From the NCBI GenBank assembly GCA_030630935.1, contig DAOVMD010000129.1:1-7870 (forward strand): a stretch of DNA of 7,870 nt, written 5' to 3'. Both the position numbers and the translations under genes were made by a program. Under the pieces are notes generated by a model. It saw nothing but the letters and a program-made list of their open reading frames with translations, ran no database searches and was not told the origin of the DNA. Positions 2,127-7,838 of the stretch are shown here, piece by piece (the first letter of the stretch is position 1; the number at the start of each line of letters is the position of its first letter). Origin of the DNA: Candidatus Mcinerneyibacteriota bacterium (lineage in GTDB: Bacteria; AUK180; JAQVHJ01).

Positions 2127-2296
2127 AAATCTATATAATGGCGCATATATATCATCATTAAAAAACATTATTTTCAGTTGCACGATTGGTCAATTGACCA
2201 ATCGTGCAACTGACATGAATAATAATTATACAGAATACTTTTTTTTGCAATGATAAAAAACAATAATATTGAAAGACTTATGCGCAGATATATAGA
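2127..2296. mobile_element. MITE-like element 1 with imperfect terminal inverted repeats
   Basis: About 170 bp bounded by related inverted ends. The left end at 2127-2148 contains ATCTATATAA and CGCATAT. The right end at 2279-2296, read on the minus strand, is TCTATATATCTGCGCATA. Inside the left end, TCATT, an A run and ATTATTTT follow; the same order is found inside the right end of the element at 2765-3072. The centre carries a 40-bp perfect palindrome. No transposase is encoded. The 27-codon frame at 2250-2333 has no support as a gene. No clean target-site duplication is visible here. The element starts just after the glycosyltransferase stop codon. Confidence 0.5.
2174..2213. repeat. 40-bp perfect palindrome
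   Basis: Two 20-nt arms, TCAGTTGCACGATTGGTCAA and its exact complement, meet without a spacer. As RNA this would be a very stable hairpin. It lies 53 nt after the glycosyltransferase stop and could end transcription from either side, but no U-run follows directly. It forms the centre of MITE-like element 1. Confidence 0.9.
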
Positions 2297-2301
2297 CACT
2301 A

Positions 2302-2381
2302 CTAAATGCTTACAATACTTAGTCTCAATCTGAGATTTACCTTGGTTTATCTCTGTTTATGGTTATTATGAAAACAATAAA
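2302..2381 (+). repeat. Dispersed repeat unit B, copy 1
   Basis: Contains in order TAAATGCTTACAATACTT (2303-2320), TCTCAATCTGA (2323-2333) and GTTTATGGTTATTATGAAAA (2355-2374). The first and third blocks recur in the same order on the opposite strand at 4281-4264 and 4140-4121, the third being identical over 20 bp. The second and third blocks recur in direct orientation at 3070-3129. This is evidently a multi-copy intergenic unit. Confidence 0.7.
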
Positions 2382-2382
2382 T

Positions 2383-2433
2383 CTTTGCTTCGCTCTGAGA
2401 TTGCCGCGTCCTCTGCTCGTGATTGGAGCAAAG
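2383..2433. repeat. Degenerate GATTGCCGCGTC palindromic element
   Basis: CTTTGC (2383-2388) pairs with GCAAAG (2428-2433), enclosing GATTGCCGCGTCCTCTGCTC and an inner stem TGCTC/GAGCA (2414-2418 and 2426-2430). It belongs to the family seen at 808-841. Confidence 0.5.
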
Positions 2434-2443
2434 CGTAAGTCAT

Positions 2444-2459
2444 CCCGATGTCCATCGGG
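2444..2459. repeat. Hairpin CCCGATGTCCATCGGG
   Basis: Perfect 7-bp arms CCCGATG and CATCGGG with only TC between them. It is directly followed by CAATGAC and the CCCAGAACC hairpin, so it forms one module of the composite repeat cluster at 2383-2592. Confidence 0.65.
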
Positions 2460-2466
2460 TCAATGA

Positions 2467-2498
2467 CCCAGAACCACTTGCTTCGCTTGGATTCTGGG
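2467..2498. repeat. CCCAGAACC hairpin repeat, copy 1
   Basis: CCCAGAACC (2467-2475) faces GGATTCTGGG (2489-2498) with CTTCG in the loop; the stem has one extra base. It is preceded by CAATGA and followed by a CGCAAAT block. Related copies lie at 2542-2592 (opposite orientation) and 4353-4384. Confidence 0.7.
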
Positions 2499-2541
2499 CA
2501 CGCAAATAATGCTTATTCCGGAAATCAAGTAAACAGTTTAC

Positions 2542-2592
2542 AATGAACCCTAACGTGCTGAGCCCAGCATCCAAGTGGTGCTGGGGTTCATT
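2542..2592. repeat. Nested hairpin, inverted relative of the CCCAGAACC repeat
   Basis: Outer arms AATGAACCC (2542-2550) and GGGTTCATT (2584-2592) overlap an inner stem CCCAGCA (2563-2569) / TGCTGGG (2579-2585), so the two are alternatives. Read on the minus strand it gives AATGAACCCCAGCACCACTT, closely matching the forward copy at 2462-2480, so the family occurs in both orientations. Confidence 0.65.
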
Positions 2593-2640
2593 ACTTGTCC
2601 TTCCATCGTTTGCTTTTGCAAACAACCTTTTGTGTAATCA

Positions 2641-2696
2641 GTTTGTGTTTGCTCCCCTAAGGGGAGTGTCTTACAAATAATGTCTCAAACACAAAC
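2641..2696. repeat. Stacked inverted repeats
   Basis: GTTTGTGTTTG (2641-2651) is the exact complement of CAAACACAAAC (2686-2696). Immediately inside the left arm is a second hairpin CTCCCC-TAA-GGGGAG (2652-2666). A short run of GAACCC units follows at 2700-2714, and a GTTCC-TGA-GGAAC hairpin at 2736-2748. No gene is visible here. Confidence 0.65.
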
Positions 2697-2764
2697 ACGA
2701 ACCCGAACCCGAACAGAATAATTAAAATAAATTAAGTTCCTGAGGAACACAACCTTCTCAATCT

Positions 2765-3072
2765 AGATCTATATAACTACGCATATTATTTTCGAAACGA
2801 CTATTTTTATAATTGTTAAAATAATAATTGTTCTTATATATTTTACTATGAAATTGTTATATTAATATTTTTAATTCAGATACACAGTCACTTTAATAAA
2901 CCTATTTTGTTTGTGCCTGTCGTACTAATTACTTCTTATAGTAAAAAGTATTTCCTAAAATTATTAATAATGTCAGATGCACGAGTTCGTATATACGAAC
3001 TCGTGATATCGTGAAAATAGATTAAAATAATATTTTGAATGACGAATTATATATGCATAGTTATCTAGATCT
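2765..3072. mobile_element. MITE-like element 2 with terminal inverted repeats
   Basis: About 308 bp. The 22-nt ends (2765-2786 and the complement of 3051-3072) agree at 20 positions; the shared core of the left end is ATCTATATAACTACGCATAT. The ends match those of element 1 more loosely. CAATCT follows the right end (3073-3078) and precedes the left end (2759-2764); the direct repeat can be extended to TCTCAATCT, 9 bp, if the end is trimmed by 3 nt. This fits a 6-9 bp target-site duplication. The interior is very AT-rich, has no credible gene, and holds a 26-bp perfect palindrome at 2980-3005. Any transposition would need an enzyme supplied from elsewhere. Confidence 0.55.
2980..3005. repeat. 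26-bp perfect palindrome
   Basis: Arms CACGAGTTCGTAT and ATACGAACTCGTG meet without a spacer. The left flank TGCACGA is shared with the palindrome in element 1. A dimeric regulator could bind such a site, but its place inside a MITE-like element makes a structural role at least as likely. Confidence 0.9.
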
Positions 3073-3129
3073 CAATCTGAAATTCGCCTTTGGTGAATTT
3101 TTATTTAGGGTTGTTATGAAAACAATAAA
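3070..3129 (+). repeat. Repeat unit B, copy 2 (3' part)
   Basis: Matches 2323-2380 with small gaps: both start TCTCAATCTGA, carry ATT and CTTTGGT/CTTGGT blocks, and end TTATGAAAACAATAAA. Its 5' part is interrupted by MITE-like element 2. The copy stops 5 nt before the -35 box of the next gene. Confidence 0.65.
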
Positions 3130-3133
3130 ACAT

Positions 3134-3162
3134 TTGAAATTGAATTCAAAGTATGCTATAAT
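3134..3162 (+). promoter_or_regulatory. Sigma70 promoter of the outer-membrane protein gene
   Basis: TTGAAA (3134-3139), a 17-bp spacer and a perfect TATAAT (3157-3162) preceded by TGC, an extended -10. The predicted start is near 3169, leaving a leader of about 20 nt that contains AAAGGAGG (3176-3183), an almost ideal ribosome binding site 5 nt before the ATG. High expression is expected. Confidence 0.85.
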
Positions 3163-4120: not shown

Positions 4121-4281
4121 TTTTCATAATAACCATAAACGATTTAAAAAAGAAAAAATTTATTTTATTTTTTCCGTTTGGGTTTCCCGATTAAATTTCA
4201 TATTACTGAAATTTAATCGGGATCACTGCACTTCGTTTGTGACGCGCTTAAGAATTTGATATAAAGTATTGTAAGCATTTA
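4121..4281 (-). repeat. Repeat unit B, inverted copy with an inserted hairpin
   Basis: Read on the minus strand it has TAAATGCTTACAATACTT (4281-4264) and then GTTTATGGTTATTATGAAAA (4140-4121), the same order as copy 1 at 2303-2374. The two blocks are separated by about 123 nt here instead of 34. The extra DNA includes a 16-bp perfect stem (4185-4200 with 4207-4222), starting TCCCGATTAAATTTCA, around a 6-nt loop. Confidence 0.65.
4185..4222. repeat. 16-bp stem hairpin TCCCGATTAAATTTCA
   Basis: Perfect inverted repeat with loop TATTAC. It is flanked by TTT on the left and TCACTGCACTTCG on the right and has no U-run on either side. It lies inside the inverted copy of repeat unit B and looks like an inserted hairpin module. 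Confidence 0.75.
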
Positions 4282-4320
4282 ATACTATATAGACCTGTTG
4301 TTTCTGAGAGGAAAAAATTA

Positions 4321-4469
4321 GATTGCCGGAGGCACAGCCTCTTTGACAATGACCCAGAACCACGCACTTCGTTAGGGTTCTGGGCGCAGCAAATGCTATT
4401 CTTATAAAAGGGAGCAAGCTTACAGATTGCCGGATGCACAGCCTCTTTGAAATTTCTCTCGCAATGACA
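4321..4469. repeat. Composite repeat: GATTGCCGG pair plus CCCAGAACC hairpin
   Basis: Two 26-nt direct repeats, GATTGCCGGA(G/T)GCACAGCC and onward to TTTGA, lie at 4321-4346 and 4425-4450 and differ at one base. Each keeps the GATTGC start of the 808-841 family; the second closes with CTCGCAATGACA at 4458-4469. The first contains a GAGGC-ACA-GCCTC stem, and in the second the changed base breaks this stem. Between them is a perfect CCCAGAACC/GGTTCTGGG hairpin (4353-4361 and 4376-4384), a copy of the one at 2467-2498. No gene is present. Confidence 0.7.
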
Positions 4470-7655: not shown

Positions 7656-7838
7656 GTAGGATTTCCTGCTGTGCTGGTAATGAACTGGTAGATTTTGAGC
7701 GACACTATATTACTGGGAGTCAGTTTGACTTCGTTTTTACTCCGAACGATGTTTAGGAGCATAAAACTTAGTCTAAGATGCCCACTTGAACTTAAGGTTC
7801 AAAAATATCTGGACATACGGCATAGCGGGAAATCCCTT
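7656..7838 (+). ncRNA. ssrS: 6S RNA
   Basis: About 183 nt that fold like 6S RNA, the sigma70-RNA polymerase inhibitor that imitates an open promoter. A 16-bp closing stem pairs 7659-7674 (GGATTTCCTGCTGTGC) with 7820-7835 (GCATAGCGGGAAATCC), with two G-U pairs. A large bubble follows: 5' side about 7675-7713, 3' side about 7785-7819, and the 3' side contains a small hairpin TTGAAC/GTTCAA (7786-7802) as in several known 6S RNAs. A terminal arm includes TGGG/CCCA (7714-7717 with 7781-7784), GACT/AGTC (7727-7730 with 7770-7773) and an apical stem GTTTT...CTCC / GGAG...AAAAC (7733-7767). Length, architecture, own promoter and position after zapA all agree. The 3' end is estimated; no U-run marks it, so processing from a longer transcript is likely. 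Confidence 0.88.

Follow-up and report, generated by a model that had tools for sequence, protein, structure and literature searches.

Two short elements in the window, by which we mean the whole 7,870-nucleotide stretch of DNA analysed here, are almost certainly MITEs of an IS630-family element, and we propose, with a probability of roughly 0.6 for both parts taken jointly, that these MITEs carry an ArsR-type operator in the form of a long, perfect palindrome. The window is contig C433 of the host genome (G000), a 3.16 Mb MAG of 471 contigs that is about 80% complete. The elements have the following features:

2132..2133 (no strand): left TA target-site duplication of element 1, target C-TA-G, compared with the empty site GATGCTAGAGCTAGACAGTATTAAATGC at G000:C223:9629
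2134..2292 (+): element 1, a 159-bp IS630-type MITE of subfamily U1, with own-genome copies that are 81-93% identical and have the same boundaries
2134..2149 (+): left terminal inverted repeat of element 1, TATAATGGCGCATATA, from the end-pattern search and copy delimitation
2174..2213 (no strand): perfect 40-bp palindrome of element 1 with type A core (TCAGTTGCACGATTGGTCAATTGACCAATCGTGCAACTGA), from class-wide relatives and pair preservation
2277..2292 (-): right terminal inverted repeat of element 1, corresponding to the transposase 3' end of the parent IS
2293..2294 (no strand): right TA target-site duplication of element 1, from the empty-site comparison
2770..2771 (no strand): left TA duplication of element 2, the CTAG target being presumed by analogy
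2772..3065 (-): element 2, a 294-bp IS630-type MITE of subfamily U2, oriented opposite to element 1
2772..2787 (+): left terminal inverted repeat of element 2, corresponding to the transposase 3' end of the parent IS
2980..3005 (no strand): perfect 26-bp palindrome of element 2 with type B core (CACGAGTTCGTATATACGAACTCGTG), the core matching ArsR-flanking palindromes, e.g. CGTATGTTCGTATATACGAACATACG
3050..3065 (-): right terminal inverted repeat of element 2, from the end-pattern search and copy delimitation
3066..3067 (no strand): right TA duplication of element 2, from copy delimitation

The elements and their family in the host genome

The initial annotation had described four related end motifs arranged as two units with inverted ends, and all of these were recovered: CTATATAATGGCGCATATA at 2131(+) with its inverted partner at 2277-2295(-) in unit 1, and CTATATAACTACGCATATT at 2769(+) with CTAGATAACTATGCATATA at 3050-3068(-) in unit 2. 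The pairing stands, while the sizes of about 170 and 308 bp had to be trimmed to 159 and 294 bp, the edge CTA/TAG being target plus target-site duplication. Each unit also contains the long perfect palindrome ascribed to it (40 bp and 26 bp, respectively); however, this is off-centre, at about 40-60 bp from one end, and is better described as a subterminal, operator-like module than as a "central palindrome". It is located at the homologous end of both units, i.e. on the left in unit 1 and on the right in unit 2. When reverse-complemented, the right end of U2 proves homologous to the U1 left end and, thus, the two window elements are oppositely oriented.

A search of their own genome recovered 63 matching pieces for unit 1 and 27 for unit 2. 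The 18-bp end pattern, allowing at most one mismatch, has 33 matches in the genome as against 3 for a reversed-pattern control, indicating that it is not a product of chance. We could delimit 17 two-ended copies in the host genome, with sizes of about 117-301 bp, and found at least 10 more that are partial or truncated. Beyond the contigs from which copies were delimited, copy numbers come from the searches with the two units and the end pattern. Two subfamilies are seen, namely U1 of about 160 bp (typified by element 1) and U2 of about 295 bp (typified by element 2), along with deletion copies of 123-129 bp on C349, C458 and C337. No copy overlaps an ORF of at least 150 aa by more than 30 bp, making the copies essentially intergenic. 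Thus, many further copies have boundaries coinciding with the inverted ends, the very observation on which the initial annotation had staked its suggestion of a family of non-autonomous elements. That suggestion is borne out: the elements are short, non-coding (indeed too short to code), multi-copy and dispersed between genes, with terminal inverted repeats, common boundaries and known empty sites, all of which are typical of MITEs. In the class relatives that were searched, matches to the palindromes were found but the element itself was absent, and the viral contigs had no matches to either the ends or the palindrome.

The MITEs sit inside or beside other interspersed repeats (TACTAAATGCTTACAATACTTAGTCTCAA; GTTTATGGTTATTATGAAAACAAT), which in the window occupy 2293-2386, 3070-3134, 4121-4140 and 4256-4291, some of them with CTAG. 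REP-like repeats with GATTGCCGCGTC, CAATGACCCAGAACCAC and similar sequences are present in several of the spacers, at 806-960, 2397-2520 and 4320-4460. A polysialyltransferase-like protein (PF07388, E 1e-15) is encoded at 1078-2121, directly before element 1, and a 6S RNA (Rfam RF00013, 64.1 bits) at 7660-7835, downstream of pheT and zapA.

Target site and parent transposase

Three paralogous empty sites display insertion into C^TA^G with duplication of the TA, as is characteristic of the IS630 family, a target-site duplication being also typical of MITEs: GCAAG-CTAG-ATCTTCG (C130), GCAAG-CTAG-ATCTC (C220) and GAG-CTAG-ACAG (C223). The corresponding empty-site sequences, obtained from genomic repeats, are GACGCAAGCTAGATCTTCG, GACGCAAGCTAGATCTC and GATGCTAGAGCTAGACAGTATTAAATGC, and filled-site counterparts read ...GCTA / TATAACTGCG...CGCAGTTATA / TAGATCT... 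and ...TCTA / TATAATGG... / TAGACACTACTAAATGC. The TA duplication at the empty sites thereby establishes the true element ends as TATAACTGCGCATA; no consistent duplication of 3-12 bp was found outside the ends among the delimited copies.

Only one DDE_3 gene was found in the host genome, a relic at C22:5290-about 6200(-) (DDE_3 E=5e-25). Its pieces score with DDE_3 and HTH_33, and also with NF033545 (IS630 family transposase) at values below the whole-protein cut-off of that model. The relic is decayed, with stops and frameshifts, and lacks the N-terminus and the 5' end. Directly after its stop codon is an element end, CTATGTAACTGCGCATAATTTATTCGACATAA, which is 28/32 identical to a U2 end, and the same end at C22:5290 was listed independently by the end-pattern search. 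The transposase gene flanked by the same termini, for which the initial annotation advised a search, was found in part: a relic with the same 3' terminus is present, but its 5' terminus is missing, with no second terminus found on that side, which abuts another transposase-like ORF. No intact autonomous copy was found in the host genome, and a full parent with the palindrome was thus not seen. As the 3' terminus of the relic is an element end, the right end of U1 and the left end of U2 represent the transposase 3' end; the palindrome-bearing end should then correspond to the parent's 5' end. The closest named relatives, from the plasmid collection, are IS630 transposases of the ISSpu2 group, at 31%; a search of 386 genomes for closer ones gave only two distant matches, and one of viral contigs gave no transposase relatives.

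Taken together, the insertion into the TA of CTAG and a relic sharing the terminus identify these as IS630/Tc1-mariner MITEs, replacing the earlier description of a family that the initial annotation did not recognise. Their predicted mobility by an IS630 transposase is well supported by these sequence comparisons. They are comparable to IS630 and ISY100 of the IS630-Tc1/mariner superfamily in the DDE_3 transposase with HTH_33, the TA duplication and the preference for TA in CTAG, and differ from them in that the host transposase is a decayed relic distant from the ISSpu2 group, and in having the ends TATAACTGCGCATA. TA targeting is described for ISY100 (PMC2170065), and the CTAG preference for TA insertion is attributed to Tenzen & Ohtsubo 1991 as cited in the same article. 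Precedents for such short non-autonomous IS630-derived MITEs, with which we group the window elements, are RUP of Streptococcus pneumoniae (IS630-Spn1) and Nezha of cyanobacteria (ISNpu3-like), each proposed to depend for its movement on a trans-acting IS that has the same ends (PMC3049150). These are unrelated in sequence to the elements described here and no ArsR-operator-like palindrome is reported for them in the sources covered.

The palindrome as a candidate ArsR-type operator

Both subfamilies have the palindrome at one homologous position, where its core is exchangeable, being either of type A (TTGCACGATTGGTCAATTGACCAATCGTGCAA) or of type B (for instance TCGCGATTTCGTATATACGAAATCGCGA). 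The copies on C4 and C130 are hybrids of 277-279 bp that combine the U2 length with a U1-type palindrome, and that on C20 has a type-B-like core followed by a U1-type flank. In 15 U1-type palindromes, 25 substitutions break only 3 pairs, where 24.3 would be expected (never fewer than 19 in 20,000 trials), four or more different pairs are altered on both arms, and divergence is 6.7% inside the palindrome vs 19.5-23% in the flanks. Such symmetric arm changes are, however, also expected from hairpin-templated correction or a structural requirement. Solo palindromes without terminal inverted repeats also occur in the host genome, and 8/10 of these are followed by a start codon within 100 bp, compared with 20.5% of random intergenic positions (p=9.5e-5); the MITE copies themselves resemble random intergenic positions in this regard (6/23, p=0.45). 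Type-A-like palindromes without the element are found in five genomes of the same class, with 1-3 in each. The stretches preceding two host solo palindromes (L060 on C454, 2830-2898; L059 on C220, 4548-4600) resemble the last codons of an arsR gene of the palindrome-flanked kind described below (EKIFGRE/A stop), as if a regulator gene had been lost beside its operator.

In the class relatives, where ArsR-type genes were assigned by HTH_5 and NF033788, palindromes with at least 12 paired arm positions have the following distribution: 11 occur in 5,400 bp of ArsR-gene flanks, vs 0 in 47,317 bp elsewhere in the ArsR loci and 0 in 89,439 bp of control transposase loci. Likewise, a best palindrome score of at least 12/14 is reached at 10/18 ArsR loci vs 1/150 control stretches. 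Thus, these relatives display an inverted repeat beside a regulator gene that recurs at paralogs, as would be expected of an operator. The ArsR paralogs differ in their palindromes, and several have palindromes on both sides of the gene. The cores match those of the MITEs: GCACGATTTCGTAATTGAGAAATCGTGC (type A) is found at locus L173 and nearly so at L174, and GTTCGTATATACGAAC (the type B of the window) at L178. These belong to a subfamily of small ArsR-type genes (L173-L190, in G002-G006) with long, perfect, paralog-specific palindromes, often on both sides, as at L177, where TCGTATCTTCGTATATACGAAGATACGA is seen on either side of the gene. ArsR divergence and palindrome divergence were not significantly correlated in a Mantel test from which redundant pairs had been removed (r=0.24, p=0.16, n=9).

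In the host genome (80% complete) we found no palindrome-linked ArsR subfamily that could furnish the cognate regulator; only three HTH_5 genes were detected, none of them palindrome-flanked except through a MITE. Two of these three (on C109 and C223) have a MITE copy upstream, at a distance of no more than about 700 bp.

We infer that the palindrome is, more probably than not, an ArsR/SmtB-type operator. Like known operators of this family, it is an inverted repeat of the kind found beside the regulator's own gene; in contrast to them, the palindromes here are unusually long and perfect (26-44 bp) and are present on a mobile element, and the regulator genes are often flanked on both sides. 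A precedent for a MITE with a host-protein binding site is offered by the Correia elements of Neisseria, which bear an IHF site and promoter sequences affecting nearby genes (reviewed in PMC10969869). The candidate site in the window elements differs in being a long, perfect, ArsR-linked palindrome with two core types within a single element family.

Alternative readings and proposed mechanism

The evidence for MITE mobility is complete without any role for the palindrome, and the palindrome could be no more than a structural or chance passenger of plain IS630 MITEs, i.e. a hairpin kept symmetric by arm-to-arm correction and devoid of a regulatory role. Templated correction of quasi-palindromes yields paired arm changes such as those seen, and the MITE copies are not promoter-near. 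We nevertheless consider this unlikely, as element-free palindromes are promoter-proximal in the host and adjacent to ArsR genes in the relatives, and as a single homologous position accommodates two cores that can replace each other and correspond to two core types linked to ArsR. The palindrome might instead act as RNA, forming a 5'UTR hairpin that influences stability or translation and that the MITEs insert into transcripts; this would suit the perfect stem with its 4-nt loop, the compensatory arm changes and the position of the 8/10 solo copies 22-99 bp upstream of start codons, sometimes right after a TATAAT-like box (e.g. on C386). The linkage to both sides of regulator genes, even just past stop codons, fits a DNA operator instead and, together with the lack of any Rfam RNA family at the palindrome, renders an RNA role distinctly improbable.

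Near-identical palindromes on both sides of ArsR genes at L177, L178, L181 and L188, type A occurring twice on G004:C6, and the arsR-3'-end-like stretches before two host solo copies might suggest that the palindromes are the ends or scars of a separate mobile palindrome-arsR-palindrome cassette that recombined with the MITE. This is very improbable, since neither target duplications nor a recombinase nor dispersed identical cassettes were seen, and two-sided operators can also be explained by autoregulation combined with control of the downstream gene. Y1_Tnp genes are found in 7/7 class genomes, and we accordingly considered REP/BIME-type hairpins mobilised by a RAYT (Y1) transposase. However, Y1 transposases are not known to produce inverted ends accompanied by TA duplication, such as the elements have, making this explanation close to negligible; a RAYT/REP origin of the palindromes was also rejected because 0/30 Y1_Tnp loci have such a palindrome nearby.

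Returning to the operator-bearing MITEs, we propose that an IS630 transposase, acting in trans, would excise the MITE at TATAACTGCGCATA...TATGCGCAGTTATA and insert it into the TA of CTAG, in the manner demonstrated for IS630 and ISY100. The palindrome, about 45 bp inside the presumed 5' (promoter) end of the parent, would bind a small ArsR/SmtB-type repressor; this location suggests that its probable origin is the region controlling the parent transposase gene. A host-type repressor bound at the palindrome would hold transposition down, and the spread of the MITEs would carry the operator to new intergenic sites. As a tentative extension, the transposon may have brought its transposase under the control of a host ArsR-type repressor through possession of that repressor's operator, swapping cores in keeping with particular ArsR paralogs, with the MITEs then seeding operators genome-wide.

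While IS630 MITEs are already known, the new aspect here is an ArsR-operator-like module at a fixed place with core exchange, for which we found no precedent in the open-access papers searched. The ArsR genes with long paralog-specific palindromes across the class constitute a ready-made system for studying co-change of repressor and operator. These elements may be dispersing regulatory switches through the genome and, if this is true, they would offer a direct example of mobile DNA spreading bacterial repressor sites, i.e. the spread of a regulon by a mobile operator.
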